Origin: a virus
Virus record (IMG/VR): IMGVR_UViG_3300000117_000045
Span: 1 to 43,323 of that record
Direction: 5' to 3' (one strand)
Length of the DNA stretch: 43,323 bases
Part shown: positions 1 through 23,109 of the stretch, in pieces
Position numbering within the stretch: the first letter of the stretch is position 1
Layout of the letters: each line of letters begins with the position of its first letter
Position numbers and translations under genes: made by a program
The notes under the pieces: generated by a model
Databases searched by the model: none
What the model saw: the letters and a program-made list of their open reading frames with translations, nothing else
What the model was told of the DNA's origin: nothing

Positions 1-3000
1 ATTTAAAGTTAATTCACCCCAACCGTTTCCAGCTGCATTGTATAATCTAAATGATTTTCCTGTAGGAACAGAAACAATACCAGCAAAAGTTGCGTTTTTA
101 CTAGTGTCTATTGTTATTGCCGAAGCACCGTTCTGCATTATATACAATTGATCATTACTATAATTTCCAATATAACCAGTTGATCCACCAGCAACCATTC
201 TTACGTCAGCACCACCACTTTCCTCTACTTTTATAGTAGCAGAACTTTTAGTTATATTTATATTGCCTGCAAAAGTTGCGGTACTATTATCAATTGTTAA
301 TCTATCTGTTCCACCTGTTTTTACTTTAAAAGCATCATCATTAAATCTAATACTAGTGTTTGTGTCACCAGCGTGTCTAATAGTTCCTGCTAAATCGTAA
401 TCACCACCCATATAACCACCAACAGCTGTTACATCACCACTTTGTGACGCTGTCATTCTCCCTAAAAGCAAATGGCATTCAGATATTCCATAAACTATAT
501 CACTTGTTACAAAAGGTGCACCTGTTCTAGCTACTAGTGTAAACTCAATGTCTGTTAAATAATTACCAATAGGTATAGGTCCACTCAACTTAGAATTACC
601 TACTTTAGTAAGCGTCATCGCCGTGTAGGTGCCGTCTTTATCTTTTACCCTAGCAGACCACGACGCAGGAAAAGGTGTTGAATAAAAACAAACTTCAAAC
701 CTTGCGTTCTGCATATACGTTATACCATTTGCCGCGACAGAACCTGTTGCTAACGATTGTACGTTTAAATTTATAACTCTACTACCTTCACCACTAATAC
801 CATGAAGACCAGGCTTATTGTACTGCTCGTAGTTTTGATCTGTTAAGTGCGGTCCAGCTGTTGACACCACAGAACCATTAACAGTTACAGTAAGTCTTTC
901 ACCTCTACCAGCTAAAAAGTTTGTTTCAATACTTGATCTAGGCTTGAACAATCCAAAAGGATTATAAGGTTCAGATGGTTCTGTAGAGTTTACATAATCA
1001 GCAGTAATAACTCCAACAGAAAGATCACCACTTATATCAGCATTACCGTTTATGTCTAGGGTAGTAGCTTCTAATTCACCAGTTACCAACACGCCTGTAT
1101 CTCTTGTTTCAAGTTTTTTAACGTTATTATAATATAACTCTACATTACCATTATCAGTAGCCTTTAAAAAAGTCTCGTTAGCACCTTCGTCTCCAAGATA
1201 TATAGAACCGCCGTTACTACCTATCCATAAATTACCAACGCCATTGTCTACAATAAAACTATGACTACCATCGTGGTATATTTGTAAATCATTGGAATCG
1301 CCAATCATTATTTTACCTGTATCAGCAAATTTAAGTTGGCCAGTACCCATCACCAAGTTACCGTTGGTAGATAAGGTTAAGTTACCAGCTATATCAGCGT
1401 TACCGTTTATGTCTAGACTACCACCAGTTAAAGAGTAACTACCAGCAGAAAGAGGACCGCCAAAAGTTGTTTGAACAGGGTTTGTTGAAAGATCCGAAGT
1501 AAATATAGCTGCGTTGTTACCAACGTCATCCATTCTAAAAGTGTTACCATTAATATCTATTTCAACAGATCTACCGTTTGTATCTTCAATAATTAAATTT
1601 GGATCGCTACTGCTTATTTTTACATCACCAGCTACGTGAAGCTTGGTCGCTGGGGCGTTTGTGCCTATACCAACATTACCAGTAGAATGATTTATTCTAA
1701 ACTGTTCGCCATTTGAAGTATTATAAGCAAATGATGGGCCTAAAGTTATATAACCAGTTGAATATCCTAAAACAGATCCAGCAGCGTTACTTAGTCTTAA
1801 ATAAGGAGTGTTTGTATCTCCATAAACATAAGTTCCACCAACCTTTATATTACCGCCAAAAGTTGCAAGTTTATTATCTCTATTTAATGTTAATATAGTG
1901 TTAACATTTGCATCACCATAAACAGACTGAAATTGTAGTAAATTACTACTACCCTCTTGGTTTATTCTAAAACCATACATGTCAGTTCCCCAAGTATCAC
2001 CAGCTTCATTAAAATACAAACTACCAGCGTCTGTTGGATTTGATCCGTTATGATTTTTTATTTCTATATCTCCATTTACTTGTAAATCATTATTAGATAT
2101 TCTAGTTCTAGTATTATTAATATCTAATCTTTGTGCAGCACCTGTTACTACTCTCCAAGTATCGTTACCATCATCAAAACCAAACCAAGTGTCAGCATCA
2201 CCAGTGTGAATAACTTTGTTAGGAATTGTTAAATCACCTGTAAAAGTTGCAGAAGTATTGTTAAGTGTTAGCCTTGCAGCTCCGCCAGTTGCTATAGTAA
2301 TAGTATCTGTAGAACTTTCCTGTATGTATGTATCACCACCACCATCTAAAAAAAGAGCTCCACCAGACTGCATGTAAACATCTTTATTACCCTTTAAAGT
2401 CAATACGGTTGTTTCTCCACTATGATAACCTGTGAAGTTCATTGTGGTAGTGTATGTAGGGCTTGTGTTGGTTCCAGTAACTTCAATACCAAAATTTCCA
2501 TTAGCTGAGTAAGAGTTATTAGGTCTAAACCTAAGCTCAGCGCCTGTAGTACCAGATATTAAACCGTAACCTACTCCACTAGCGTTTCTAACTTCAAGCT
2601 GTCTTTGGGGAGTTATAGTTCCTATACCAACCTGCTGGTTGCTATCTATTCGCATTGCTCGGTCTGCGTTACCAGTAAAGAAATCAATATGGCTGTTGGT
2701 TTTAGCTGTTGCTATTGATAATACCCGATCGTCATATTTCCATCTTATAAATGCTGCAAAATTATCACTTGGAGATGTCCAAACTAAACCACCGGTTTCG
2801 TCGTCTGGATTAATAAATCTTAAATAATTAGTAGTATTGCTTTCAACCAACATAGATGTTCCAGTGTCAACACTACTTACACCGGAGCTACCAGCTGTCG
2901 CATGCAATTTAGCTAGGGGGCTTGTAGTTCCTATACCAACTAGACCGTTTTCTATATAATGCTTTGTAGATGCTTTTAACGTAGCAGCTGAACTTAGTTG

Positions 3001-5064
3001 TTTAACTTCAAACTTATCTATTCCCCAAGTGTTTGTTTGGTCATGACTACCCCCATCTATAGCACCAATACCCATACCAAACTTATGAAACGTACCACCA
3101 TTCCCATCGTTTGTAAAATCAGTTACAGTATAAGCACCTCTGTAAGCTTGGTAACCATTAGTATCTATGTCCCAAACCATTATTTGGTTATCAATAAACC
3201 TAACTTTTAAAGCAGTTGCTAGATTATTAGCAGTTTGGTTAAACACACCGTAGTCGAAATTAGTTATTTCAACAAAACTTCCGCCTTCCTTTTTTCTTAG
3301 TTTACAATAACCACTGTAACTTGCAGACCATTGTAAAGAGAAAAAGTTGTCTGCGTCTTTATATTTAAATATTATATGAAAGGTATCGTCACCACTATCT
3401 CTTCTAAGAAAATCAACTTTAATCTCATAATCAACAGCTGTTGGTAAAGTATCACATAGATATATCATACCATCACTACTATCTGTTACACTTACCTGTG
3501 CAATACCACCCCCACCTATAACATTCCAAGCTTGTGCGGTTCCACTGTCAAACACTTTTGTCCAACCAGCACCTGTGTCAGGTGTATGTGAAGCTAGATC
3601 TGTTGTATTAGTTTCTGTAAATGTATCGTTAAATATAACTGTACCACCTAAATCAAATGCTTGTAAATCTGCGTTACCAGTAACTTGTAGTTTTTGACCA
3701 ACAGTTAGGTAACCATCATGAGTAAATGTTTGTGCTTTTGAAACAATGTTTACAACACCTTGATTATCACCAGTAACAGTATTACCAATCTGTCTTCTAC
3801 CAATGTTAAGGTTTATAATACCACCTTTGTTAGGTCTACCAAAATTTATATTGTGAATAATACCATTAGTATATGGATTTTGATCAGTATTGTTTCTACC
3901 CCATTGAACATTAGTAAGAACATCAAGCGTACCAACACCTGTATAGGTAGTACCATCTATAAGGTTTACAGTTCCACCATTACCATGTGTTAAACTTGTT
4001 GTGCTATATGAAAGCAAGGAAGCATAAAAATATGACGCATTGCCAAAAATTGACATTCCTTGAAAGCTTGCTGCTCTTGAAACGTGAAAATCTCCACCAA
4101 CATTTAAGCCGTTTTTAAAACCAACAGAACTATCATTACTATTGGCAAAAGTAACACCACCAAAACTGTAAGTCCTTACGTAGTCACCGCTAGAAGCAAC
4201 TGTAAAAGCTTTGCCAATTGTTTCATTTACATACAGACCACCAGCATCACCTTGGTAAGGAGTTGTTCTTGGGCCTGTTGAACCCGAGTACGTTGCTGTT
4301 GTTACATTAAAAGCTGTAGATAAATCAAGCTGGTGAATTGTGTCATATGATGCCTCAAATAACCAGAATTTTTTTCCATCTTCACTCACCCAAACACTAT
4401 CAACACCACTAAGATCAGCGCTAAGTGAAACTGTTTCAAGTCTAGTAAAATCAAAAAAGTTATGCAAAGAAAAAAGATTACCTACAGATATAGTAGAAAC
4501 GTCCCAAGCACTAGAAAGTGTGTATTGTTGAACGGTGTCTTTGCTATGTGAAGTTACCCAAAACATAGTGCCGTCAGGTTTGAAATTTATACTTGTTGGA
4601 TCTGTATAGCCACTACCGTCTGCTATTGTAAGGGCTTGCTCTCTAGTATAAGAACCTGTTGAAACATCCCAAGCAGTGCTTAGTGTATATTGTATAACTT
4701 GGTCTACACTATGACCAACAATATATAGGTATATACCATCTGGTGATATATACATACCCATAGGACTACCTTCGCTTGCTGGTGAACTACCTATTCCAGC
4801 TAGTTGATCAGTGTATGTTGCGGTTGTAACATCCCAAGGTGTTGACAAAGCCCATTCATCAACATCATCTCCAGATCTACCTAAGATATACATTTTAGTA
4901 CCGTCAGGTTTAAAAAATATAGTTTCAGGAGCTGTTTCTTGAGAACCAATGCTTATTTTTTCCTTAGCCAGTTGCCAAGTAGATATATCACACGAGTCGC
5001 TTGCCAGCGTGGTTGTAGAAACATTGCCTACAATATCTATATCACTTAGAAACTTTTGTCCCAT
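1..5064 (-). CDS. Giant tail fibre/spike protein, 3' end beyond the window
   Basis: An open frame begins with ATG at 5062-5064 and stays open to base 1 (at least 1688 residues), so the C-terminus is missing. The start (MGQKFLSDIDIVG) follows an A/T-rich leader 30 bases after the 508-residue fibre gene. Residues about 45-260 hold four propeller-like repeats with a PDG or EDG turn near residues 54, 109, 164 and 229, followed by a W-D-V-S/T-T-type segment. The rest is Gly/Asn/Thr-rich beta sequence, including three copies of the VGIGT motif near residues 708, 811 and 1130 (for example VGIGTTSPLAKLH), a hallmark of long fibres in marine phages. Such proteins often end in an S74-type intramolecular chaperone, which would lie outside this window. 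The inferred role is host-surface binding. It could equally be a spike rather than a slender fibre. Confidence 0.85.
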   Translation of the reverse strand, partial: MGQKFLSDIDIVGNVSTTTLASDSCDISTWQLAKEKISIGSQETAPETIFFKPDGTKMYILGRSGDDVDEWALSTPWDVTTATYTDQLAGIGSSPASEGSPMGMYISPDGIYLYIVGHSVDQVIQYTLSTAWDVSTGSYTREQALTIADGSGYTDPTSINFKPDGTMFWVTSHSKDTVQQYTLSSAWDVSTISVGNLFSLHNFFDFTRLETVSLSADLSGVDSVWVSEDGKKFWLFEASYDTIHQLDLSTAFNVTTATYSGSTGPRTTPYQGDAGGLYVNETIGKAFTVASSGDYVRTYSFGGVTFANSNDSSVGFKNGLNVGGDFHVSRAASFQGMSIFGNASYFYASLLSYSTTSLTHGNGGTVNLIDGTTYTGVGTLDVLTNVQWGRNNTDQNPYTNGIIHNINFGRPNKGGIINLNIGRRQIGNTVTGDNQGVVNIVSKAQTFTHDGYLTVGQKLQVTGNADLQAFDLGGTVIFNDTFTETNTTDLASHTPDTGAGWTKVFDSGTAQAWNVIGGGGIAQVSVTDSSDGMIYLCDTLPTAVDYEIKVDFLRRDSGDDTFHIIFKYKDADNFFSLQWSASYSGYCKLRKKEGGSFVEITNFDYGVFNQTANNLATALKVRFIDNQIMVWDIDTNGYQAYRGAYTVTDFTNDGNGGTFHKFGMGIGAIDGGSHDQTNTWGIDKFEVKQLSSAATLKASTKHYIENGLVGIGTTSPLAKLHATAGSSGVSSVDTGTSMLVESNTTNYLRFINPDDETGGLVWTSPSDNFAAFIRWKYDDRVLSIATAKTNSHIDFFTGNADRAMRIDSNQQVGIGTITPQRQLEVRNASGVGYGLISGTTGAELRFRPNNSYSANGNFGIEVTGTNTSPTYTTTMNFTGYHSGETTVLTLKGNKDVYMQSGGALFLDGGGDTYIQESSTDTITIATGGAARLTLNNTSATFTGDLTIPNKVIHTGDADTWFGFDDGNDTWRVVTGAAQRLDINNTRTRISNNDLQVNGDIEIKNHNGSNPTDAGSLYFNEAGDTWGTDMYGFRINQEGSSNLLQFQSVYGDANVNTILTLNRDNKLATFGGNIKVGGTYVYGDTNTPYLRLSNAAGSVLGYSTGYITLGPSFAYNTSNGEQFRINHSTGNVGIGTNAPATKLHVAGDVKISSSDPNLIIEDTNGRSVEIDINGNTFRMDDVGNNAAIFTSDLSTNPVQTTFGGPLSAGSYSLTGGSLDINGNADIAGNLTLSTNGNLVMGTGQLKFADTGKIMIGDSNDLQIYHDGSHSFIVDNGVGNLWIGSNGGSIYLGDEGANETFLKATDNGNVELYYNNVKKLETRDTGVLVTGELEATTLDINGNADISGDLSVGVITADYVNSTEPSEPYNPFGLFKPRSSIETNFLAGRGERLTVTVNGSVVSTAGPHLTDQNYEQYNKPGLHGISGEGSRVINLNVQSLATGSVAANGITYMQNARFEVCFYSTPFPASWSARVKDKDGTYTAMTLTKVGNSKLSGPIPIGNYLTDIEFTLVARTGAPFVTSDIVYGISECHLLLGRMTASQSGDVTAVGGYMGGDYDLAGTIRHAGDTNTSIRFNDDAFKVKTGGTDRLTIDNSTATFAGNINITKSSATIKVEESGGADVRMVAGGSTGYIGNYSNDQLYIMQNGASAITIDTSKNATFAGIVSVPTGKSFRLYNAAGNGWGELTLN

Positions 5065-5094: not shown

Positions 5095-6621
5095 CTATGC
5101 GTATGTTGGCGTTACACCAGTACCACCTTTATTACTAGTAATTACAACTTTGATGTCATTAGTAATATCTTGTGCAAAATCAACTGTAATTTTATTATCA
5201 TCACCTGTACTACCATTGCTAGTTCTAGTTACCTCAGCATGCACAGTAGCATTTGTAGTTGTATCGTACATTTCAATAATAATATCTTTAGTGTTTAAAG
5301 AGTGTGTTATCGTAGCTCTTTTGTTTGTAGAACCTTGAATACTAGAAGCTGATATTGTTGCTATTACAGATCTAGCGCCTAACTGTGAAGCATCTATAAC
5401 TTTTGCAGTACCAGAACCGTTTTTAGCTTCAGTAGCCGATGCTAGTTCAACAACACCTTGTGCGTCATCCGCTGCATCTGGTAAGTTAGCAGCTGGTAAA
5501 ACACCAGTAACATCTGTTGTTAAATTAATAGCGTTTCTTGTTATTACTTGGTTACTAATAGTTAAGTAATCTAAAGAACCACCAAGTGTTACATCACCTG
5601 TATTTGTTCCAGAGTTTGTACCTGTAATTTGTGATGTTAAAGCTACAGTACCAGTAGTATTTGGTAATGTTATTGTTTTGTCAGATGTAGCGTCTGCAGC
5701 TGTAAGTTTTATTTCATGACTATTACCATCACCAGCTCTAAATGCTAAAGTGTTATCAGCAACAACTTGTATTGTTTCGTTTTTATAAGTAGTAGTACCA
5801 GCAACAGTTAAATTACCAGGTATTGCTATTGTTGTTCCAGAAGCACCCATTGTAAGAGTGTTAGAGCCAACAGTATCAAATATTGTTTTATTACCTGATG
5901 TTAAATCTAAATCAGTTAATCCAACAAGCGCGGTTACTGTACCACCTAATGAAGTATCAGCTGTACCAATTGTTATACCATCGTGTACAAGTTTTGAGTT
6001 TGCAATTGAACCAGCTAGCTGAGTGTTACTTACACCGCCAGATTTTATAGCAACAGCACCATTAGTTACACTAAAGTCAGACGTAGGGAATGAAGCTACA
6101 CCTTTTGAAGTAGCAGTAGCGTTAGCAGCACTTATAGTAAAAGCATCGTCACCTCCTTTTTCAAAACTAATAGGCGCAGTACCTGTAATTGTTAATGTAT
6201 CACCAAGAGTTAAATCATTAGTTTGACTACCGTCAGAAACAATTATTTTATTTGCAGCTAGTTTAGTAATAGCAATAGAACCGGACAGCATGGCACTTGT
6301 AATACCACCAGCCTTAACCCTAAGAGTATCTGAATTTATTTCAATTGATGAGTCATCAACGTTCACAGACAGTGTTGGTACTGGTCCTGTTAAACTTGAA
6401 CCTCCTAAACCAGCGCCAGCAGTAATACCAGTTATATCACCCTGTTGTGTAAGGTCAATAAAGTTTGTGCCGTCGTGAAAGTATAATTTGTTTTGAGTAT
6501 CATGAACATATAATTGACCTAGTATACCTGCGTTGTCTGCTATTGTTCCTGAGTTATGTATTACCGGTCTTAGTATTTGATTTTGATTAAGATCAATACT
6601 ACTGTAATATTCTATTGCCAT
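5095..6621 (-). CDS. Tail fibre protein, 508 residues
   Basis: This low-complexity, Thr/Gly/Ala/Ser-rich beta protein resembles phage side-fibre shafts. It has recurring segments such as GSIAITKLAANKI and GGVSNTQLAGSIANSKL, a SDKTITLPNTTGTVALTSQ segment, and a shaft-to-tip AAxLPDAADDAQGVVELAS motif widely seen in tail fibres. The C-terminal 90 residues contain ITHSL followed by KITVDFAQDITNDIKVVIT, a small beta-sandwich tip that resembles the separate 84-residue protein encoded just upstream. No catalytic motif is visible. Fourteen bases separate it from the 84-residue gene and 30 from the giant fibre. The start follows an ACAAAACAA leader with no Shine-Dalgarno. The receptor-binding or structural role is inferred from composition and position. 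Confidence 0.8.
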   Translation of the reverse strand: MAIEYYSSIDLNQNQILRPVIHNSGTIADNAGILGQLYVHDTQNKLYFHDGTNFIDLTQQGDITGITAGAGLGGSSLTGPVPTLSVNVDDSSIEINSDTLRVKAGGITSAMLSGSIAITKLAANKIIVSDGSQTNDLTLGDTLTITGTAPISFEKGGDDAFTISAANATATSKGVASFPTSDFSVTNGAVAIKSGGVSNTQLAGSIANSKLVHDGITIGTADTSLGGTVTALVGLTDLDLTSGNKTIFDTVGSNTLTMGASGTTIAIPGNLTVAGTTTYKNETIQVVADNTLAFRAGDGNSHEIKLTAADATSDKTITLPNTTGTVALTSQITGTNSGTNTGDVTLGGSLDYLTISNQVITRNAINLTTDVTGVLPAANLPDAADDAQGVVELASATEAKNGSGTAKVIDASQLGARSVIATISASSIQGSTNKRATITHSLNTKDIIIEMYDTTTNATVHAEVTRTSNGSTGDDNKITVDFAQDITNDIKVVITSNKGGTGVTPTYA

Positions 6622-6635
6622 TTGTTTTGTTGTTT

Positions 6636-6890
6636 TTAATTAAGATATGCTTTTCCTTGAAACGCGTGTGCACTACCTGCGTTAAAAAAAGTTATAGTTA
6701 GTTGTTTGTCAGAATTATATATTACTTTACCTTCAACTATGTTGTTAGAACTATCAACAACAGTTACAGAAGGGTATCTATGTAAATCGTGTGTTATAAT
6801 CCACGTTGCGGAAGTAGTTGTTTGGTTAAACACAAAAGTAATTTCACCTACTATAGGCTTGTGAAGAACTGTTCTTCCTATATATTCCAT
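6636..6890 (-). CDS. Small fibre-tip-like protein, 84 residues
   Basis: The protein contains ATWIITHDLHRYPSVTVVDS, then a V-x-G-x-V-x-Y segment, LTITF, and ends in FQGKAYLN. This pattern is common in the terminal domains of phage tail fibres and baseplate proteins, and I recognise it as a tip-domain family. Here it stands alone rather than fused to a shaft. Its start overlaps the stop of the 684-residue repeat protein by one base (TAATG), suggesting coupled translation. It probably forms a tip or adaptor on the fibre encoded next. Fold and role are inferred. Confidence 0.7.
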   Translation of the reverse strand: MEYIGRTVLHKPIVGEITFVFNQTTTSATWIITHDLHRYPSVTVVDSSNNIVEGKVIYNSDKQLTITFFNAGSAHAFQGKAYLN

Positions 6891-8944
6891 TATTTTATTA
6901 TTTTTCTTTTTACAGTACCATCACTATAATTAAAAAACAATATTTTATTTTTAATAATATTTGTTTCTCTACCTAAAATATCAGTTACTGATACTAGAGT
7001 TTTTTGTATACCTCTTATTGGCATTGGACCAACCCAAGTGCCCTCACAATAATTGTATGTTGCCTGACATACCGTGTCCCATTCATTTTCACAGCAGTAT
7101 TCGTCAATATCTATAACCCAGGCGTAACACGGATCGTTAAGCCAGTAAGGTATGCTATCACCAGTGATGCAACCTGCGCTGTAAAGACAAGATAAAGAAT
7201 TGTCAACATTAGCATTTGCATTATAGTTATACGCTTCTGAATCCATGCAACCCACAACGATAGAAATACACGAACCGTTATCCGTGTTAGCCAGTGAATC
7301 GTAATTAAGGGCCAAACTATCCATACACCCATAAATAAAGGCAATACAACTAAAATCCTCCGTGTTAGCCGTTGCGTTGTAATTAAGAGCAGAAGGGTCC
7401 GTGCAGCCATATATAAAAGGAACGCAAGGAATACTATTGTTGGTTGCATTTGCAAGTGGGTTATAATTAAATTGTGTTGAGTCCATACAACCATATATGA
7501 AAGGTATGCAAGAACCATTGTCTACATTTGCAAGCTGATTATAGTTAAACATAGTAGGGTCTGTACAACCATAAATAACAGGCACACAACTTCCATCATC
7601 AACATTTGCTTGTGGCATGAAGTTAAAAGCCATAGGATCAGTACAGCCAAATACTATTGCAATACAACTACCATCATCTGTATTGGCTAAGCTGTCATAG
7701 TTAAGCGCTGTCACATTTGTACAGCCAAATATTACTGGTATACAAGTGTCAGGTGTATTAGCAAGTGGGTTGTAATTAAATGCTACCGGCTGCATACAAC
7801 CTATAACTACAGGTAAACAACCGCCATTGTCTACATTAGCTGTAGTGTCGTAATTAAACGCTGTTGAATCAGTACAACCAAACATAGCTAGTGTTTCACA
7901 ACTATCTTCTATGTTTATATCTGTGTAGTAAGCATTAGCCGTATCAATATGATATTGTAAGTATGCTGGTGATATGCAGCCAGGATAATAAAAGCAGTCA
8001 TCAGCTGTGTTAGCACTATCAACATAGTTAAACGCTAAAGTATCTAAACAACCATATACTATCTCTTCACATATATTACCACAGTAAGTAAAACCTTCGT
8101 ATAAAGTAAATGGTACTATAAAAGGCGGTTGAACAGTCATAGCTGTATCACCATCAGGACTTATTAAACTAAACCCACATTCTATAGCCGTAAACTGAGC
8201 TTGTTGAGTAACAAACAATTTAGCACTAACAGGAGCTGGTGCGTATAAGTCTATGGTAAAAGCTTGATTAAAACCACCGTTTGTCATTGCAAAAGAAGTT
8301 GTGTCATCTTCTTGATATATTTCTAAAACAGTACCTATCCAACCATTACCTATTAAATCATGCAATATAAGATCGTAAGTACACTGAGCAATATTGTCCA
8401 TTGAGTTAGCTAGTGGATTGTAATTATACATAGTGCTATCAGTGCAACCATAGACTATTAACGTAACACAACTGCTATCGTCAATATTAGCTAACGGGTT
8501 GTATTCTAAGTAATCATCATCTAAACAACCAGGTACTGGTGGTGGTGGAGGGCAAAAAGCAGATATAAACACATGCGTACTATCATAACCAAAATTAGCA
8601 GAGTCGCCATACACTAAAGTATCACCACACTGCATAACATAATAAGAACCATCTTGTCCACCCCATATACTACCTTCTAAACCATCACCATATAAGTCGT
8701 ATATAGTAAATGATAACTCACCAGGAGGTAAACAGTTAACTATAAATTGTGGTTGATAGTTAGGTACATTTGTGTATGGACCACCAGATATAATAATATT
8801 ACCTAATGTATCTTGAATATCCCAAGTAGTTTCCGATGGGTATTGGTCTAAGTTTATATTAATTAACGTAGGTATACAGGGACCAGGTCCTTGTGAAAAT
8901 AATAATGTTGGTATTAATAATATAAGTAATAGTAAATTTTTCAT
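6890..8944 (-). CDS. Secreted Cys-repeat protein with T9SS-like C-terminal sorting domain
   Basis: Residues 1-17 form a signal peptide with an LFS-Q cleavage site. Residues about 25-130 match a Bacteroidetes extracellular domain type (SETTWDIQD, SGGPY, then a FTIYDLYGDGLEG turn). Residues 140-586 hold 13 Cys-bounded repeats of the type CTDPxAxNYNxxANxDDGSC. A Cys-rich block follows at about 591-633 (CCENEWDTVCQATYNYC). The last 40 residues contain DILGRE and end FFNYSDGTVKRKIIK, closely resembling the sorting domain found at the end of flavobacterial type IX cargo. Known family biology predicts export by Sec, passage through the host T9SS and display on or release from the cell surface. The architecture is that of a cellular protein, so capture from a host is likely. 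Its place just before the fibre genes leaves a virion adhesin as an alternative. Gene overlaps are one base at each end. Confidence 0.85.
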   Translation of the reverse strand: MKNLLLLILLIPTLLFSQGPGPCIPTLININLDQYPSETTWDIQDTLGNIIISGGPYTNVPNYQPQFIVNCLPPGELSFTIYDLYGDGLEGSIWGGQDGSYYVMQCGDTLVYGDSANFGYDSTHVFISAFCPPPPPVPGCLDDDYLEYNPLANIDDSSCVTLIVYGCTDSTMYNYNPLANSMDNIAQCTYDLILHDLIGNGWIGTVLEIYQEDDTTSFAMTNGGFNQAFTIDLYAPAPVSAKLFVTQQAQFTAIECGFSLISPDGDTAMTVQPPFIVPFTLYEGFTYCGNICEEIVYGCLDTLAFNYVDSANTADDCFYYPGCISPAYLQYHIDTANAYYTDINIEDSCETLAMFGCTDSTAFNYDTTANVDNGGCLPVVIGCMQPVAFNYNPLANTPDTCIPVIFGCTNVTALNYDSLANTDDGSCIAIVFGCTDPMAFNFMPQANVDDGSCVPVIYGCTDPTMFNYNQLANVDNGSCIPFIYGCMDSTQFNYNPLANATNNSIPCVPFIYGCTDPSALNYNATANTEDFSCIAFIYGCMDSLALNYDSLANTDNGSCISIVVGCMDSEAYNYNANANVDNSLSCLYSAGCITGDSIPYWLNDPCYAWVIDIDEYCCENEWDTVCQATYNYCEGTWVGPMPIRGIQKTLVSVTDILGRETNIIKNKILFFNYSDGTVKRKIIK
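7187..8527 (-). repeat. 13 Cys-bounded GCTDP-type protein repeats
   Basis: These are in-frame tandem repeats inside the 684-residue gene, residues 140 to 586. A typical unit is CTDPTMFNYNQLANVDNGSC, followed by a 4-8 residue hydrophobic linker ending in G. The first four units are diverged or separated by inserts, one insert being about 90 residues. The later nine are near-regular, about 35-38 residues apart. The conserved core is two Cys flanking N-Y-N and A-N-x-D. The D/N-rich core looks suited to calcium binding, but that is inference. Confidence 0.85.
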
Positions 8945-9267
8945 TAGAAGTCGCTCATTATCTGTTCATTAATAAATTCTTGTATTTCTTTTCTTGTAGC
9001 AAGCATTTTAAAACTAAGATCTGCTTGGTACCTTTTTATTTCTTCTCCATCTTTAAATATTATTATAGTAGGCACTATAACGATTTTATGTTTTTCTTGT
9101 AGCTTTGTTTCTTTAACTATGTCTACCTTAGCTAAATCACAATCATTTAGTTTTTGAAACCACTCAACGTCGTTTGCAGAGTTCCAGTCAGCATTAAACT
9201 GGGTTACAACAACTTGTGAAAAAGCACTGTTACACACCAGTATTAATGTTGCTAAAATATATTTCAT
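8944..9267 (-). CDS. Secreted thioredoxin-like protein lacking the CxxC site
   Basis: A signal peptide (residues 1-17, cleavage SAFS-Q) precedes a short thioredoxin-fold-like domain. VVVTQFNADW matches the strand before the thioredoxin active site, and IVIVPTIIIFKDGEEIKRY matches the strand with the cis-proline (P66) and the following hairpin. Where the redox motif should be the sequence reads W28-NSAN, with no cysteines. The only Cys in the mature protein is C43. Disulfide exchange by the usual mechanism is therefore unlikely, and a binding or chaperone role in the periplasm is more plausible. The stop overlaps the next gene's start by one base, tying it to the T9SS-like protein. The fold call rests on pattern, not on a search. 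Confidence 0.7.
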   Translation of the reverse strand: MKYILATLILVCNSAFSQVVVTQFNADWNSANDVEWFQKLNDCDLAKVDIVKETKLQEKHKIVIVPTIIIFKDGEEIKRYQADLSFKMLATRKEIQEFINEQIMSDF

Positions 9268-9543
9268 TTATCTTAATTTATCAATTTTATCCTCCATACG
9301 GATCATACGCTCCTCAAGCTTTTTAACATCGTCTCTGGTCTCCATAATAGTGTTTCTGATGTTCTCATCTTTCATCTGAAACTCCATACGTGACACGTCA
9401 GGCTTTGGTAGTTCTTTTGCCTCAGCTATATCAGCTTGCAAAGCAAACCACATGCCTATAATACCAGATATTGCAAACCCAACCGCTATGAGCGTTTTAA
9501 TACTTATAGTAAAACCAGTATTTTCGTTTAATTCTTTCGCCAT
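9268..9543 (-). CDS. Membrane-anchored coiled-coil protein (holin/spanin-like candidate)
   Basis: A 91-residue protein with one clear membrane segment (about residues 13-36, containing LIAVGFAISGIIGMWFALQ) and a highly charged C-terminal helix (about 50-91) with coiled-coil character. The short polar N-terminus suggests an N-in, C-out topology. Size and topology fit an inner-membrane spanin subunit or a holin-accessory protein, but no family motif settles it. It is sandwiched between exported proteins, and its stop is immediately followed by the thioredoxin-like gene, whose start is the next base. Involvement in lysis or in membrane anchoring of the neighbouring exported proteins is inferred. 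Confidence 0.6.
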   Translation of the reverse strand: MAKELNENTGFTISIKTLIAVGFAISGIIGMWFALQADIAEAKELPKPDVSRMEFQMKDENIRNTIMETRDDVKKLEERMIRMEDKIDKLR

Positions 9544-9562: not shown

Positions 9563-10609
9563 TTAAAAGATTACATAATTTACACCAAACTTAAAGTCAT
9601 ACCACTCTCTGTTCCAGTATTTGTTATACTTACCCTCAATAAACGTACCTAAGGACTTATTTAGCTTATAACCAAATATTAAACCACCGCTATAATCTAA
9701 CCATTGTTTACCCTCGTACTTGTGATAAGAGTAATCGTTACCGTCGTCATAATGATAAGGCATAATGTTAGCCCATGTGTGTGTCCAAAATGATTTTGTA
9801 TAATGATAGTAATCAAAACCTATTACAACAGAGTGTTGTATGATTTGATCTAAATCATTACGTTTTCTTTCAGTATAATCAGCCAACATAGTTGGTATCA
9901 CAACCTCTTCCCAAACCTCCTTGTTTGTAGCAACGAGCTCTCCATCAGGAGAGAAATACTCACTAGCAGCTACGTTTACATTATAACCCTCTTGTAGCGC
10001 TAGATAAGTGTAATGTATATTGCCATTGCTGAGCACCCATTCTGCTAAAGGATCATAACCATACGGTTCAGATAACCTTTGAGCAAGTCCAGCATTGAAA
10101 GACAATTTGTCATTAGCTTTATATCTGTATCTTTGTGACGTTTCAAAGTATTTAATATCAGCAAAACCATCTTCTAGGTATTCGCCTTTTAATATATACT
10201 TGTTATCTACAAATCTTATAAAGTGATGCTGATCTAAATATTCATTACCTTGTTGTCTTGTGTAATCTACTTCAAACAAAAACTCTAATCCACTTACTTT
10301 ACCTACGTTAGCACCGTCTGACCACGAGTTTTCAGTACCATCGTAAAATGTTTGTGCTCTGTTTTCGTAACCAAATCTAGCTATTTTACGTATACCTAAA
10401 GCTAAGTTGTAATCGTATGGTGTTTTAACTGTTACAGTTTGTAAACCACTAGTTACAGAAAACACATCTACATCTGATATAGAGTTACCACCGTTAGCCG
10501 CAGCATAAAACGTAGAAAATTTAAATATCTTTTTTATATCTTGACTACAACATTTTTTAGGCGCAGCACAAGATGTTAATATAATTAATAATATAATTAG
10601 TTTTTTCAT
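9563..10609 (-). CDS. Outer-membrane beta-barrel protein, 348 residues
   Basis: The N-terminus is a hydrophobic signal with a lipobox-like ILTSC (C14), followed by AAPKKCCSQ, which also offers a signal-peptidase-I-like site. The mature protein is rich in alternating aromatic/polar strands (for example LEFLFEVDYTRQQ, YRYKANDKLSFNAGLAQRL, SVVIGFDYYHYTKSF, GGLIFGYKLNKSLGTFIEG). It ends in FKFGVNYVIF, a terminal aromatic residue typical of barrels inserted by the BAM machinery. I count enough strands for a barrel of roughly 10-14. The start overlaps the stop of the lipoprotein gene by four bases (ATGA). A phage gene of this kind could alter the host outer membrane, for example by receptor masking or superinfection exclusion (inference). 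Confidence 0.75.
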   Translation of the reverse strand: MKKLIILLIILTSCAAPKKCCSQDIKKIFKFSTFYAAANGGNSISDVDVFSVTSGLQTVTVKTPYDYNLALGIRKIARFGYENRAQTFYDGTENSWSDGANVGKVSGLEFLFEVDYTRQQGNEYLDQHHFIRFVDNKYILKGEYLEDGFADIKYFETSQRYRYKANDKLSFNAGLAQRLSEPYGYDPLAEWVLSNGNIHYTYLALQEGYNVNVAASEYFSPDGELVATNKEVWEEVVIPTMLADYTERKRNDLDQIIQHSVVIGFDYYHYTKSFWTHTWANIMPYHYDDGNDYSYHKYEGKQWLDYSGGLIFGYKLNKSLGTFIEGKYNKYWNREWYDFKFGVNYVIF

Positions 10610-11160
10610 TCTTTTATTTTAATTGTTATGTCATGTGGCGCGTATTCATTACCGCCAAAATATGGGTATAAATAATATCTACGTAATAAACCCCAGTTAC
10701 CTTCAGGTCTTCTTCTAACAAGTGTAGTATCATTATCTATTATTATTACATAATAAAACGTTTTTATATCAATAGTGGCGTTGTAAATTACATCTGTATC
10801 TATAGTCCTTATTGTTGCAGCACTATGTCTACCTTCTTCATGCCTTAACCAACAAAGCTCTAGCTCGTCGTTTAAATATCTCCAACCAAGTCTTATAGAG
10901 TATTTTTGATGACGCAAACCAAAATCACTCATGCCGTATATTTTATTTACATCGTGTTGGTTTTCTGGTATTTCACTGGTGTATATAGCTGATTGGTCTA
11001 ATATAAACTTAAAACTTATTCTAGAGTTATCTGGGTGGTTTATAAAACTACCTGAGCTATGCTCACCAGCTGGTATTGTATAAACTCTAAAACCAAGATC
11101 ATCAGTTTCTTTCTCACACGAAACAAAAACGAATATTATTAGTAGTAGTCTTTTAATCAT
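10606..11160 (-). CDS. Predicted lipoprotein, 184 residues
   Basis: Residues 1-15 (MIKRLLLIIFVFVSC) are a short type II signal with a FVSC lipobox. The mature N-terminus C-EKETDD is acidic, resembling the lipoprotein export signal that sends Bacteroidetes lipoproteins to the cell surface. The rest is beta-rich with many aromatic residues and no recognised domain; RHEEGRHSAATIRT is a distinctive charged stretch. It overlaps the end of the 3091-residue gene by eight bases and the beta-barrel gene by four, so all three are probably translated together. It may be a surface lipoprotein partner of the barrel protein. Function is unknown. Confidence 0.7.
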   Translation of the reverse strand: MIKRLLLIIFVFVSCEKETDDLGFRVYTIPAGEHSSGSFINHPDNSRISFKFILDQSAIYTSEIPENQHDVNKIYGMSDFGLRHQKYSIRLGWRYLNDELELCWLRHEEGRHSAATIRTIDTDVIYNATIDIKTFYYVIIIDNDTTLVRRRPEGNWGLLRRYYLYPYFGGNEYAPHDITIKIKE

Positions 11161-14100
11161 GGTAATAGCAAAGACTTGACTTGTTGTTAGTTGTCATTTT
11201 ACATCTTTTACCATCTGATTTAATTTTAGTACATTGTACTTTTTTGTCATCTTTTCTTTTTTCTACTTTCTGGTGAACAGTACAATAACCACCTTCTAAC
11301 GCTTTGTTTTTACACCTAGTACCACTTCTACTTATACCAGCACACAAACCATCTTTCTTTTTTATATTTTCTTTTTCTACTTGTTTATTTTCTTGCTCTC
11401 TTATTTTTTCTTTTTCTATTCTCTTTTGTTTTGCTTTTTCTTTAGAAATTTCTTTTTTAATTATTTTAACTTCTTTCTTAGCGTCTAACAAAGCTTGTGG
11501 TTGTATATCAAAACTCCAACTACTCCAACCCATAACCATAGCTATTCTTTCTAATGTTCTATGATCGCTGTTCATAGCTTCTCTTACGTTTCTAATCTTA
11601 CCATGTATTCTTGATAGTGGCACATTTGTAGTTGCTTCAATTACAGCAAAAGCAGCGTCGTATACTGGATTGTCTATACTAGTCATAGGCATATGCTTTA
11701 TAACATCTCTATTAAACTCCCAAGACTGCAAACCTCCATACATTTTTCTAGCTTTAATACCAATTGGAACAGCTAAATTTAACGCTTCAATAACGGTGTA
11801 CGCGTGATCTGCTCTGTGTTTTTTCTCTTCTTGTTCAAAAAACTCTAGTACAGTATTTTTTATTGTAGCAAATATCGCGCCATACAAGCCAGAACCTCTT
11901 AATATAGTGTCTGCCATACCATTTGCTATTCTACCATATCTTTGTTCGTCTTTTTGTTTTTTCTTTTCATCTTCTTCTTCATCATCTCCAAACGTTACGG
12001 CAAACAATGCTTGTTGTAAACTATAGAATATAGCATTTTGTATCGCCCCATAATATAGTATTTTTGATATATGAGTTTTAGTATCACCCCTACCGTTTAT
12101 TAAATCTTGTGCCGCTCGCTTCATTAACCTGTTATACTGCATAGGTGTATTTTGAAAAGCAAATATTATTTTACCAAGAGGAGATGCTTGTAACTGTGAT
12201 ATTTTATCTGGTCTAGCAGACTGTTGAGTTTCTTCTGCTATTTCTTGAAATTCTATAAAAGCTTTTTCCATAGCCTCTTGTTTAGACATGCCTTGCTTTA
12301 TATATTTGTTTACTCTATTTCTAATAAACGTAGCTCCACCAAAAGCAATTGCAAAACTATCAGCTATTTGTGTAGGTAAAAAACCTTTTTGCAACAAAAT
12401 ACCTATTGCTGTTTTTACAGGGTTTCTAGAACCTTTTACAGCTTCTACTAATTCATTGGCATTTACGTCATAAGACAAACCAGCTCTTCTTTGTTTTAAG
12501 AAAGGTGAGTTAAACAACATTAAAAAGTCAGACCAAAACTGTTTTTGATTAGCAAAAGCCATACCTGCTTTTAATGGGTTGTTATCAGACCAGTTTATAA
12601 AGTTAACCGTAGATAAAGTTTGTAGCAACGCAGATCTAGCGTTGAAAAACATTGTTGTACCAATAGAACCATGTACCCAGTTCATAAACTTGTTCATATT
12701 ACTATCTCCACCTCTTTTATTTGTACCGTGTTTCATTCGATAAAACATATCTTCCAATGCAATTCTATGGTTTAAACCATATTGAGATTCAATTTTATTT
12801 AAATTCTTTTCACTAAATATTGTGTTCCAATTGTCTTGAAACTCTTGCAATAAAACATCTCTAGTTTTGTTTGTAATTTCGTTAAGATTTGAAGATAAAG
12901 TTTCTGCTAACCAGCCTATATCATCTGGTGTTTGCAATCCACCTGCTGTTTCTGATATTTTACCATATTGATCAGCGTATAACTTAACTGCAGAATCACC
13001 CTCAACAAATTTAACTATAGCGTTTTTATCTGACTGGCTTAAACCAGGTAATTCTATACCAGCTTTAGCGTAGTTGTATATCATCACGGCTTGCTCTAAA
13101 GTAAAGTCAATTCCATCAATTTTATCTTTTAACGCTTTAGTTATTTTTTTATTTGATTTTTTTAAAGCTTTTAAATCTATTGAAACAGATTGTTTTATCG
13201 CATTTAAAGCTCTAACAGCTTTTGCGTAAGGAACTATTATAGTATCATTAAAAAACTTCATCGCGGCTTCACCTTTTTTACCTTTGCCTAAAAACGGGTA
13301 TAGTAATCCTTTTAAATCTTCAGCTGATGGCGGTAAGAAAAACTTCCACCTACCTTTTCCTTTACCTCTTTGTCTTCCTTTGGCTTTACTAAATACTTTT
13401 TCTTTTTTTACACCAGTTGTGTCCTCTATTATTTTATTAAACTCAGCGTCTAAGTCTTCATCTTTTCTACTAAACTCCATGTTACCACTTCTTACTTGTA
13501 CTGACTTACCTTTTATATCTAGCTGGTCCATAACATCTTTCACAGCGTCAACATTAGGTAAAGCATCGTCTACAAAATAAACATCATTATAACCTTCGCC
13601 ATACTTGTTTGCTATCCAAGCTCCTTTTGCCGCTCCAGTACTATCACCTAGGCCAGTTATATTTTCAATAGGTATATTTATACCTTTTGATTTTAACCAC
13701 TCATGTATAGCTATTGCAGATGCTTGTGGTCTTGCTGTTAATACGAAAGTATTTTCTGGTCCAAACTTTTTTATTCTATTTCTAAGTTTTTGCATTAAAG
13801 GCCCTTCAACACCACCTCTTACGTTTACAAAGTCATTAAAGTTAAACTTGTAACCATCTTTCATTAGTTGCGGACCTTTTATTGGCCATTGTTCACTACT
13901 TATTTTTACCTCGTTTCCAGTCTGTGGATCTGTAGCTATAACAAAATTTTCTCCTTTAACAATTAATGTTTCATCAAAATCAAAAGCACTCATACCTCTT
14001 GAAGGTACTTTTTTGCTTTTCATCATTGAGTTTTTACTTTTTATTAATCTAGGCAAAGAACCAAAACCTTGCTCTCTAACATGTCCTTTTGTTTCTTTAA

Positions 14101-17100
14101 AATGCTTAACTATTTCTATAGCAGCGCTAGATGTTTCTTCTATATTGTTTTCCTTAGGCGATATACTTTCTATAGGTTGCAGCATAACCGGGTCTACATC
14201 AGGATCTTTAGCAAGATTCATTAACGTTACAGGGTCAAACATTCTACCACCATCAGTAGGTGACTTAGTTTGTAAACCAGCAGCTGTCATAGCGTCGTCC
14301 CAAGCTGCAGGTATAACATTTACCTCGTAACCATCAAAAACAGAGTCTATGTCAAGCTCTCCATTTTTTTGATAAGACTCTACTATTCTTTTATTTATTT
14401 CTGCTTTTGATACAGAGTGTTCAAATCTTAAAGCATCTTTTATTGGAATACCATTTTTATTAGCCCAAGCAATAATCTTACCTACGTTTTTTACAATACC
14501 TCTTACTGGTGCTGATTTTCTAAGAGCAGAGTTCATGCCTGCGCCTAAGGTTGTCATCAAAGCGCCAAATTCTTTCATTGACATTTCACCTTTTTGAACT
14601 TTATTCCAAGCGTTGTCTAATATTGTTTTTGCTAAAACTCTAGCTTCTTGTGACTGCTCTTCTCTTTTAGCCCCGTCTCTATCCTTTATAACAGCCTCTG
14701 TAGTTTCTTTCAGTTGAGTTGTTTCAACAGCAACCCACTCGCTTTTACCATCCCAAACCTCAACAGTATTACCTACTTGTCTTATCCATGTTTTAGTTTC
14801 TGGGTTTTTTATTATGTTTGGATTATCAGTATTGTTCATTAAAGCAAGGTGGTCAGAAGCTGTCATGACCGATTTGCTACGGTTACCAGGCGTAACCATT
14901 TCACCTTTTTTGTTTTTAACCAAAGGCGGAGTTCCGTCAGAATTATTAGTTGGATTATCTACAACATTTAAGTCACCGTCTTTTAATGGTATACTTCTAC
15001 CATCTCCAATTTTTCCTGAACCAGAAAAAGATAATTTAAAAGAATCTTGCATAACAGTTCTACCAGCATCAACTTGTGAAACACCGCTTTCAACTAGTTC
15101 ACCAGGAGTGTCTTGCGCAACCTTTCTTAACCTGCTTACTCCAGAGTAATTACCCTCTTTATCTTTTACTGTATAAACATCACTTACGTTACCTTTAATA
15201 CCAAGAGCTTTTCTAAGACTAAGCTCTACAGCTGCTTGATCTAATCTAGCAACAATAAACTGCTCAATATTAATATCAATTGCTTCCGAAGCTTTTATTT
15301 CCATAAACATTTCTACATCGGCTTTTAAAGCTTTAGCTTCCTTTTCAGCTTGTTTGGTTAATGTTTTTAAACCATAAGCATTTTGTATTATGTTGTTTGC
15401 TTTTTCAATAGTTATACCTTCTGGACTACCATAATTAGCTAACACCTCGTCAAGTATAAAGTCAATTGGATCTTGCGATACTTTTTTACTATAACTCATT
15501 TCTGATTTACCATCAGATATTTTAGCGGCAAGCTTTTCACTTAGCAAGCCATTTTGCAACCCTTCAAGCTTTATGTTTTGAAGAGCTGATAATGCAGATA
15601 AGTTAAGCACTAGTTGTCTTATAGCGCCATCAGAAGATGTGCCAGGTCTAAAAGTACCGTCTGGATTAATACCAAAAGTGTCTAGCCAATCGTTTTGATC
15701 TACAGAGTCTATCTTGTCTTGTCTAGCTTTACCTACACCACTACCACTCTGATCTTTTCCACCCATATCAATTCTACTACCTTTGTCGTAAAATTTACCT
15801 AAAGCTCCTCTAGCTATACCAGTTGCCTTACCAGTTCTATCTTCACCTTCTGGGAGCAAGTCAAACATTGCCGGGTTAAATGTACCGTCTTGATTTAAAC
15901 TTTTACTAAGTATTAGTTCTTGAGCTCGAACTCTCATTGTATCGTCTAAGTCTTGGTTTGCTAGTATTCTAGCTGGTTCAATACCAAACTCTCCAGATAT
16001 AACCTCTAAAATACCATATAATGGTCCTAAAGGTGTCACATCACCTTCTTTTGTAGGTCTTTTTATTACGCCATCTTTTTCAACTTTAGCAACTTCACCA
16101 ACTAGTTTTTTAAAATCTTTATAAAACAATCCGTCAAAACTACCTTTGTAATTAGTTACAATATCTTTTATTTTTGCCTTACCATCTTGAGATATTTCTA
16201 AAACATTGTCAACAACTAATCCGGTTATAATTTCTTGAATAGCTTGTCTAGCACCGGGTGACAAGTCCATGTTTTCTAAACGCTCCATATAAGCGTCGGA
16301 CTCTGATTGTAATGTTTCACTTAAATCACCATAATCACCATAAACTTTGTCAATAGAAGTTATACCTTCATCTGGAGTAGCTTGGTTCATCTCAGCCAAC
16401 ACATCACCTTTAGCTCTAAATATAATTGATTTACCAGCTCCACCTGAAACACCCGTTAACCAACCAAATAAACTTTCATTTATAGCTGGATTAAAGTTAG
16501 CTCTTAATCTATTTCCTAATTTTTCTTTTACTTTTCTTACGTAATCTCTCATTGGTCCTGCTTCAAGATTTATACCTGCAGCAATTAAACCGTCTAACCT
16601 AGGAGTGTTTTCAATAAAATTCATTGCTTCCCAAGAATCAATTGAATCTAAAAACTCTTGTTTAGTGTTGTATTTTTTAGACCCATCATCGTTTTGGACA
16701 TACTGATCAAAATCTTTTTTAACTAACGGATCTTCTTTTAAAACTTGATCAACATTTTTAGAAAAACTTGTTTCAGCATCAGTTGGTGCTTTAGCTCCTT
16801 CAAACATTTTACCCTTAGCACCATTAGCTATCATACGGGCTATAGCTTTGTTAGGTTTGTTTTTTCTAACAGAAACATCATAATCTCTCATGAAGTTTTT
16901 AATATCTTCTGCGGTGTCAAGGCTAATGTCATGGCCTAAATAGTTTTGTGCAAAACGTCTAAACACGCCTTTCATTTTTGTAAAGAAACTATCATTAAAT
17001 TTTATTTGACCATTACGATACATTTCCATTGCAATAGCCATTGCCTCCTCACCCTGCTTTGTTGCCTTGTACCCACCAACTCTTTTGTTAAACAAGTCAA

Positions 17101-20100
17101 TGTCTTTTTCAGACATAAAAACACTTTTATCGTTTAGTATATCTATAACAGCACTACCTAGTTTTTTTCTTGCAGCAGGGTCTTGTTTTAACGTATTGTA
17201 AAAAGCGCCATGAACAAACTCGTGTGACGCCGTATTAAACATACCGTCTGTCAATGCTGTTTCTTTATTGACAAGCATTTCAATACGTTCTAAACCACCA
17301 TCTTTGTTAAATACCGGTCTCATACCACCATAGTTTTGAGACTCACGACTTATAAAATCTAACGCATTTCCAACATCACCAACTTGCGACTCTGCCGTTT
17401 TTAAAGCTTCTTTGGCTTCAGCTATTTCTTCTGGCGTAGAGTTTGGATCATTAATTATTTCTGAAGCAGCTTGTTTTAAACCCAAGTTATAACTACCAAT
17501 ATTTTCAACCCCAGCTATAGAAGCGTCATATTCATCTTGAGATATGTTTTCGCCCATTTGGTTTGAATCAACCTCTCTAGTTACAAATGGTACTCCACCT
17601 TGTTCAGCAACTTCTTTTTCATAAGCTTTCATGGCTTCCATCTCTTGCTTATAGTTGTCGTCAACTACATTTGAAGGGTATTTATCTAATACTTTTTGTT
17701 TCTTTTTATTGTTCTTATCAACCTTACTTCTAAGCGCGTCTATTTCCTCTGTTTTTTGTTCTGGCGTTAGATTTTCATCAGCCATAATGTTTTCAGCGCT
17801 TTGTCTAGCTTGGAAGTTTGCTTTTTCTATATTTATTAACTGTTTCTTTTCAGCTTTACTTAAAAGGTTTACACGTTTAATATCTTGCTCTATTAATTCG
17901 TTTGCTTCATTAACAAGGTTAGCATGTTCTTCTTCTAGTCTAGCTCTTCTAACGGTAACACCCGCACCTTCTTGACCCATCATTGATGCAAGTGATTTGC
18001 TAACTTCGCTTATTCTATTAGCTATTTTGCCAACTCTTTGATTATTGTCTTCACCCTGAAACGGTGCAACCAACTTAGGCGCTAGTCTTAAACCTTGTAA
18101 ACCACTACTAATAACACCACCACTAATAAAAGATTCGCCAACACCATCGTATATATTAACATCTTTGTTTCCAGATAAAATATCTGCAAGGTTACTACCC
18201 ATACTAGCTAAACTCTCTGAAAAACCTTCTTCAAAAAATTCTCCACCAGTGCTTTTCATATTGTCAAAAGTAAATATATTTTTTCTTAAATAACTTTCGT
18301 AACCCAGTTTAGCAACGTCTTTACCTGCTTTTTTAGTAAGTGACTGAGCTGTTTTACCAACAGCACCAAGCGTAACTCTTTCAGATAATGCTTCCATTGT
18401 ACCACTAAAAGTTGCGTTTGCAACCATAGTACCATAACTTAAATTTTGCCCATACAAACCACCAGTTCGCATATACAAGTCTTTTTCATCTTGTAATTGT
18501 CTATACTTATTACCCGCTGCAGAAGCACCCATAACATACAAAGAAGCACCACCAGTAGCTGCCATTAAAACTAAGTTTGGTATTTGTGATGCAAATAAGT
18601 TTGCACTCCATTCTACAGCGTCACCAAACCCACCAATTTTACCAAACTCAACAGGTCTTCTAACTTTGTTGGTAATATTAAGTTCTTGCCACTTATCTAA
18701 TCTATCACCAAACCTTGTCCAATTGCTTGATGTTGTTGTTATGCTTTTACCAGCTATATTTCTTGTTTCTTTTTCATCTGCAAAAACCCAACCCAAAGGC
18801 GAGCTACTTCGCAAAGCACTTTGCATGTAACCTTCTAAAGCTGGATCGTCAATAAGTTTTATTACTTCTTCTGGCATTTGAAAAACCATATCTAAAGAAT
18901 CTCCAAGACCTTGTACCAAGTCTATAGCAGCGTTACTTAGATTAGCAAGCCAAGTGACAACAACACTTCTGTTCCTGCCAATTTCACCAGCTATAACTCT
19001 AAGCTCTTGCTCTTCTAGGTTTCCTTTTTCAAGCTTTTTAAATAACTTATCTGATAGCTTTATGTATTTTTTACCCTCGTCAGCTAAAAAATTATATCTA
19101 GCACCATTTTTTTTATATTCAAATATTTTTTTATCTAGCTCTTCTTGTGCTTTTTTAATCTCTTCATCACTACTATACTCTTTGTTTTGAGCATTTTCAA
19201 TTTCTTTTTCAATATCTGTGTTATCAAAATACTTTAATAATTCTTTTAGCTCTTTGTCTATGCTTGTAAGATCTTCATTTACTATTTGAAACTTTTGTAC
19301 AAGATCTTCGTTTTCTTTAATTTTTTTATCACGTCTTTTATTAGCAACGCCAGTAAGCTCTTTTTCTTCAGCACTTTCATAAAAAGTAACCCCACCCTTG
19401 TCTTTGTATAGTTTTTCAGCTATTCTATCTTCAAACTTACTTTGCTTTTTATCTTGTTTAAACTGTTCTAATACAAAATCACTTTGTTTTTTTAACTTTT
19501 CTTCATCGCCATTAATTTCTTCTTCAGTTCTTTGTAAAACATCTTTAAATTTTTCGCTATTTAATATTTTTTGTTTTAATAACGCTTTGTCTTCTTCGTC
19601 TGTTACACTATCATATTCTATTTTTTCATTTGAATTTTCTTCAAAATACTTTTGCATAGCTTCGTTTTGCACATAAGTTAAATTAAGAGTGTTTAACTGG
19701 CTTACATCTTCTGGTGCTTTAATCTCACCAATACCTCTGTAACCACCAACTCCTTTTAATCTTTTAAGCTCTGCCTCGTGAGCTTGATAATCTTTAGCTA
19801 CTTGACCCGCAAACAATAGTTCCCCATCAGAGTCAAGGCCATCATAGTAATCGCTTTTTTCATTTAGATTTTTTAAATATTCTTTAACTTCTTTATCAGA
19901 CATATCCTCTGGTAAACCTAAAGCTTTTTTAACGTCATCATAATAACTCAACGCGCCACTATACATGTTATTTACGTCTTTGTTTTCTTGAGAAGATATT
20001 TTTCTAGTTTCGTCACCCAATTCATCTAAATAACCTTCGGGAGTACGCGGGTAATTTTTAGGAGCAACAGGTGGATATTTTGGATCAGGTATTCTTTTTT

Positions 20101-22746: not shown

Positions 22747-23109
22747 TTATTTACTGCTTTCGAACACGTCAGCACCAATACTAAATATCTCTGCCTCTGA
22801 TGTTGAGCTGTTTTTAAACTTTACATCAGCAAAATAACCTAACACGCTACTAAGATTAGCCTTGTTGTCTTTACTAAAAAATACAAAATTAGTTATACCG
22901 TTGTAAGTACCTGGTAAACTTGTGTCAACAGTTAATATAGGTGAGTTTGAAGTTGCGTTTTGTATTCTTGTTATAGTACCTATTTCAGTTACTGAATAAC
23001 TATTTACTGTAAAACCCGCTGTAGTTGTAGTTGGAACGGTGTAAGCAGTGTCGCCAACTTGGCAGGATACGTTTAAAGGCTTATTAAATGTTAGTGTTAT
23101 TGTTGGCAT
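22747..23109 (-). CDS. Small beta-rich structural protein, 120 residues
   Basis: A Thr/Ser/Val-rich protein with no signal peptide, starting TITLTFNKPLNVSCQVGDTA and ending in ADVFESSK. Segments such as FVFFSKDNKANLSSVLGYFA recur in small proteins encoded beside large tail genes of marine phages. Its start overlaps the stop of the 2536-residue gene by one base (TAATG), so the pair is probably co-translated. A small accessory of the tail or fibre-attachment structure is the best guess. Confidence 0.6.
   Translation of the reverse strand: MPTITLTFNKPLNVSCQVGDTAYTVPTTTTAGFTVNSYSVTEIGTITRIQNATSNSPILTVDTSLPGTYNGITNFVFFSKDNKANLSSVLGYFADVKFKNSSTSEAEIFSIGADVFESSK

Follow-up and report, generated by a model that had tools for sequence, protein, structure and literature searches.

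The viral record IMGVR_UViG_3300000117_000045 is a 48.5-kb contig that carries terminase and portal genes. The stretch analysed here, its first 43,323 nucleotides (hereafter the window), contains a gene for a 684-residue repeat protein that is a candidate cargo of the type IX secretion system (T9SS). The open reading frame given for it in the initial annotation is exact and lies on the minus strand, where it overlaps both neighbouring genes by one base or a few. The features of the protein and of the genes beside it are collected in Table 1.

Table 1. Features of the repeat protein and of the adjacent genes, in window coordinates.
Feature	Position	Strand	Basis and occurrence
Secreted repeat protein, 684 aa, T9SS cargo candidate	6890..8944	minus	open reading frame and translation; ATG at 8944
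Sec-type signal peptide MKNLLLLILLIPTLLFSQ, residues 1-18	8891..8944	minus	sequence; passes a simple rule
N-terminal beta domain, residues 20-131	8552..8887	minus	pLDDT mostly 73-87 outside weak loops
Thirteen GCTDP-type Cys repeats (residues 139-590), with the second beta domain lying among them	7175..8530	minus	motif count
Second beta domain, residues 185-290	8075..8392	minus	AlphaFold2 pLDDT 81-88
Cys-rich domain preceding the tail, residues 591-640	7025..7174	minus	CC and W-D invariant across the aligned family
Putative C-terminal sorting tail, 38 aa, residues 647-684	6893..7006	minus	tail profiles; three predicted strands, pLDDT 78-88
Protein with signal peptide and thioredoxin fold, without CxxC	8944..9267	minus	PF00085, E=8e-7; 72/77 loci
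Small protein with one N-terminal transmembrane helix and a coiled coil (by eye)	9268..9543	minus	phrog_1009, E=1e-5; 72/77 loci
Exported outer-membrane beta-barrel protein	9563..10609	minus	model pLDDT 74; 67/77 loci
Predicted lipoprotein (lipobox by eye), optional neighbour	10606..11160	minus	14/77 loci

Both ends of the protein resemble export signals. The N-terminus is of Sec type by sequence and by a simple rule, in line with the initial annotation; the rule is crude, and by it 56 of 64 complete phage homologues also carry a signal peptide. The C-terminal tail reads QKTLVSVTDILGRETNIIKNKILFFNYSDGTVKRKIIK, and the DILGRE and FFNYSDGTVKRKIIK motifs reported for this end are both present. 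Strands are predicted at residues 650–654, 667–673 and 678–683, which in the structural model form a single three-stranded sheet. Between the two ends, a recount with the pattern GC[TML][DNSQ]..NY..AN returned the 13 repeats originally described. A Bacteroidetes-type extracellular domain had also been proposed. Pfam finds no such domain in the window protein, but a confidently predicted beta domain occupies the N-terminus, where three homologues (L049, L058 and L075) have a MAM domain with E-values from 1e-17 to 3e-24 and others have different domains. A fold search with the repeat protein gave only weak C2-like matches from a low-confidence model (mean pLDDT 47) and was not used.

Public domain models do not recognise this protein. 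Searches with Pfam, NCBIfam and PHROG yielded no model for it, with nothing credible from Pfam or NCBIfam for its C-terminal end. A TIGR04183 search of the record gave no match, and neither type A sorting-domain model (TIGR04183 or PF18962) matched the window protein. With the full protein as query, no NCBIfam family appeared up to E=5, including type B (TIGR04131) and type C (NF033708). The initial annotation had held that a C-terminus matching no T9SS domain model would refute a T9SS role, and, taken literally, this is what we found. We argue that the reading nevertheless survives, since public models do not cover the class to which the tail belongs. The case for a flavobacterial T9SS tail on a phage protein is instead comparative, resting on tails shared with bacteria and on tail exchange.

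The repeat protein belongs to a family found in at least 77 IMG/VR loci; a search of the INPHARED phage records gave no relatives of it. The hosts of these phages can be approached through the terminase and portal: among 87 INPHARED relatives of these two proteins, the listed bacterial hosts are all flavobacteria (Flavobacterium, Cellulophaga, Tenacibaculum and Maribacter).

The family carries two kinds of tail. Among 69 phage homologues with a readable C-terminus, 56 have the short tail and 13 a type-A-like tail of about 72 residues that starts with YPNP; none is tailless. In searches with full-length homologues or their 120-residue ends, most of the replacement tails tested scored 27–53 bits against TIGR04183 (cut-off 23), with one below it at 17 (L063), and PF18962 matches them likewise. 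On a tree of the region preceding the tail, five changes of tail type are needed, at least four of them forced by well-supported branches, although the repeats make the tree uncertain in detail. The clearest pair, L031 and L004, is 95.2% identical over 643 residues and then continues into unrelated tails. A bacterial esterase family alternates too, with type-A-like ends in L177 and L179 and the short tail in their relatives. Profile–profile comparison with hhalign detects no homology between short and type A tails, and for that reason we do not describe the former as a shortened type A domain. Repeated replacement by an unrelated sequence at one site, with no tailless member, is what would be expected if both tails do the same job. 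In two loci (L028 and L074) the repeat gene appears frameshifted, with the tail in another frame, through either a fault in assembly or genuine loss of the gene's function. A further phage protein (L057:5037-5996, and also in L029) is Omp28-like, with a PF11551 match slightly under the cut-off, and its end, IYDIYGRTVTDIKKNTIYIKNNKKFIQF, likewise has the look of a short sorting tail.

To follow the tail into bacteria, we scanned bacterial genome contigs with a profile (A1) built from 24 phage tails only. It found 194 stretches, from which 78 loci were kept, all in records titled as Flavobacteriales or other Bacteroidetes. In these loci the tail starts 37–42 residues before the stop codon, at the extreme C-terminus of the protein. 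By the same simple rule, a signal peptide is present in 59 of 66 complete tail-bearing open reading frames versus 174 of 458 others in the same loci (p=5e-16). The proteins are otherwise unrelated and include a PHB esterase, an M43 peptidase with an SprB repeat, a beta-lactamase fold, an S51 peptidase, and AhpC/TSA, Laminin_G and plastocyanin families. One M43 peptidase (L149) combines the same tail with a similar repeat, GCTDSTALNYNPLANTDDGSC.

The relationship between phage and bacterial tails holds in both directions. A reverse profile made from bacterial tails only retrieved the window protein at 53.6 bits (E=3.4e-16) as its sole match among 488 six-frame open reading frames of the window. 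A phage-tail profile rebuilt without the window tail and its two closest relatives recovered it at 2.7e-19. The window tail is thus far beyond chance. Unrelated proteins from three other contigs of the viral collection (L232, L233 and L234), one of them 374 kb long, end in the short tail too; contamination with host DNA is possible for these.

In an order-wide draw, the tail occurs in 57 of 148 Flavobacteriales genomes. PorU is present in 51 of the 57 tail-bearing genomes versus 60 of the 91 tail-negative ones (p=0.0016), and the remaining six tail-bearing genomes have SprA, so that every tail-bearing genome has one or the other. This association is confounded by lineage, as most Flavobacteriales have a T9SS. 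A phylum-wide draw of 296 genomes returned the tail only in G002 and G074 plus two marginal hits, which indicates that the tail marks a lineage. Copy number in ten genomes searched whole ranges from one to 51, the maximum being in a 1.9-Mb marine genome. Because small marine Flavobacteriales (G002 and its relatives) encode up to that many proteins with an unmodelled tail, current annotation probably undercounts their secretome.

Sorting signals of comparable length are known from elsewhere in the phylum. Prevotella intermedia, described as the one member of the phylum for which both long and short C-terminal domains (CTDs) had been reported, has 48 predicted short CTDs of 43–55 residues, some of them shown to be cleaved and glycosylated; they are predicted to form a three-stranded sheet with a conserved glycine/basic loop, a GxY/N motif and a basic end (PMC11969387). 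The targeting signal of HBP35 has been mapped to its last 22 residues (PMC11285876). The phage tail resembles the P. intermedia signals in its three predicted strands, its glycine and basic residues in the first loop, its basic end and its use beside long CTDs. Its LGR corresponds to motif B, with G and R invariant in all 24 phage tails, and an EKK/KRK near its end corresponds to motif E. It differs at motif D, where LLFYIYxDG replaces GxY or GxN, in the length of its conserved part (38–40 residues) and in lineage. From this sequence comparison we treat the phage tail as short-CTD-like, without assigning it to the Prevotella class. It shares with TIGR04183 and PF18962 an extreme C-terminal position on signal-peptide proteins, and those domains occupy the same site in the 13 homologues above, but they are longer, start with YPNP and have no profile similarity to it. 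Among open-licence papers we found no description of the short tail.

These comparisons bear on whether the tail might serve an outer-membrane route other than T9SS, the two simply being found together in this lineage. The lack of detectable homology to type A domains and the restriction of the tail to part of the Flavobacteriales in both draws would fit such a route. Against this, short and type A tails replace each other on the same proteins in phages and in bacteria, and the three-strand layout, LGR loop and basic end resemble the working short CTDs of P. intermedia (PMC11969387). We therefore regard a separate route as quite unlikely. The T9SS reading is supported because Flavobacteriales that have a T9SS bear the same tail on numerous secreted proteins unrelated to one another, and because it has been exchanged repeatedly with TIGR04183-type tails in near-identical phage genes. 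Counted against it are the missing model match, the missing type A homology, the absent motif D glycine and the lineage confounding. Judged by these comparisons, the tail very likely directs passage through the SprA translocon.

The genes surrounding the repeat gene were examined for clues to its function. The initial annotation placed it in a virion operon. Tail-type genes do flank it (5095-6621 and 1-5064) in the structural half of the genome, but the term is too strong, since the conserved neighbours form a membrane and export set. The flanking genes would suit a virion protein, such as a fibre or tail decoration, whose signal-like N-terminus and tail serve another purpose. Yet both signal peptide and sorting tail are conserved, PHROG offers no match, and it is difficult to see why a protein that assembles in the cytoplasm should trade one sorting tail for a dissimilar one at the same site. 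A virion role is accordingly very improbable.

One conserved neighbour is the barrel protein, which is 58–89% identical across 42 aligned phage copies, many with a lipobox-like signal, and has no match in Pfam, NCBIfam, PHROG or INPHARED. Its best VIA-align score is Z 11.6 to OmpG (rmsd 5.5, 188 aligned), and its matches include CymA and a chain of a T9SS complex (8gl6_F, Z 8.8), as for a general outer-membrane barrel; because they span many kinds of barrel, the comparison does not discriminate among them. The arrangement recalls type B CTD cargo, whose genes lie close to those of PorP/SprF outer-membrane barrels (PMC9143113, PMC12618676), but the phage barrel lacks a Pfam or NCBIfam match and is kept with either tail type. 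On these grounds we set aside a PorP/SprF-like shuttle specific to one tail type, which the barrel probably is not. The thioredoxin-like protein has a conserved MSDF end in most copies and, like the barrel, no relatives in INPHARED phage records.

The neighbourhood also raises the question of lysis. A gene for peptidase M15, DUF5675 or a similar endolysin-type or related protein lies near in 51 of the 77 loci, which points to a lysis region, and in five loci the M15 match starts at or just before the stop of the repeat gene. A distant relative, G430, has the barrel, coiled-coil and thioredoxin-like genes adjoining an M15-like gene, with the repeat gene absent, and the coiled-coil product is laid out, by eye, like an inner-membrane spanin. 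The three proteins could then disrupt the envelope while the repeat protein helps to break or detach the outer membrane. However, a repeat protein secreted outward would be an odd lysis factor, the window has no match to that M15 protein, and its holin homologue lies at 41883-42248. We consider a lysis module unlikely. Among the contigs identified by terminase, the 14 longer ones mostly end before the repeat gene.

Other genes of this phage deserve mention. The window encodes a GroES-like co-chaperonin at 40782-41372 (phrog_13932), and a 521-residue protein farther along the record (L321:1237-2802, record ~44236-45801) reads by eye as GroEL; such a pair seems unusual in a phage of this size. 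Two giant proteins are encoded at 11153-20428 (3091 residues) and 23109-30719 (2536 residues). The larger ends in two small Cys-rich motifs with a weak DUF5763 match, which is odd for a virion-type protein.

Combining these observations, we consider it probable that the gene encodes a phage-borne cargo of the host T9SS, made as part of a late module. Late in infection, as its position suggests, the repeat protein would be produced together with the barrel, the membrane coiled-coil protein and the exported thioredoxin-like protein. Sec would carry it to the periplasm by its N-terminal signal peptide, a step well supported by the sequence. There the tail, as a short three-stranded T9SS sorting signal, would direct it through the host SprA translocon. 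Once outside, the repeat stalk and its exchangeable head may form a coat that binds or adheres to the dying host, its debris or neighbouring cells. The most likely purpose of such a layer would be to hide receptors or alter the surface, sparing other phages or the phage's own progeny from unproductive adsorption.

The initial annotation suggested a receptor mask, adhesin or aggregation factor, and we likewise infer a role outside the cell. Domain type and gene position make a binding or masking layer possible, and we offer it tentatively. Phage T5 places a lipoprotein, Llp, at the host surface that blocks receptors late in infection. Our preferred role, a late layer that masks or modifies host or debris, would work like this protein without implying kinship; Llp is a lipoprotein rather than T9SS cargo, and serves as a working analogy only.

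Phage-encoded T9SS cargo is already known from precedents of 2019 and 2020. Cryophage encodes endoglucanase, GH39 and PA14 proteins with type A cargo domains, in strain-variable genes presumed to use the host T9SS, for which its authors suggested new abilities of the host, competition or exclusion (PMC7468147). The crAss-BACON cluster 2 phages carry T9SS sorting-domain proteins near the structural block (PMC6949934). Both resemble the present case in bearing sorting tails on phage proteins, the latter also in gene position. They differ in that Cryophage has three different genes with standard type A domains, as opposed to one conserved family in which a short unmodelled tail alternates with type A, and that the gut-phage proteins have BACON domains, with neither a short tail nor tail exchange reported in the portion of that source consulted. 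The new elements are a conserved phage family with its module, a short tail that is spread among marine Flavobacteriales, and the exchange of this tail with type A.

The Cryophage proposals would fit a reading in which the cargo is a host-derived accessory or fitness gene, an adhesin or particle binder that aids the infected cell or the spread of virions on particles and has no role in masking or exclusion. The joint occurrence of repeat and tail in the bacterial M43 peptidase and the exchangeable heads, MAM and others, agree with this. However, a sorting tail is retained in all homologues whose tail can be read, and the same neighbours recur in 67–72 of 77 loci, as would suit a core module of the phage better than an optional gain. 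An accessory gene is thus rather unlikely, and we favour T9SS cargo made by a late phage module.

A broader extension of this reading is more speculative. It is conceivable, if doubtful, that a clade of marine flavophages has made the host T9SS a core part of its late programme, with a dedicated export module of barrel, membrane coiled-coil protein, thioredoxin-fold protein and repeat adhesin, the adhesin acquiring through successive tail swaps the signal that its current host reads and coating the dying host or its debris to control adsorption. The short tail would then be a lineage-specific sorting signal not described before.

A whole phage family, and not single genes, consistently carries a host-type T9SS export signal, and natural tail swaps tie an unmodelled 38-residue tail to this system. 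Should this be confirmed, present annotation would prove to overlook a class of cargo amounting to dozens of proteins in a single small genome, and the tail would provide both a minimal T9SS signal for study and a marker by which uncultured phages could be linked to hosts. How a phage benefits from secreting a protein is a further question that lends itself to testing.
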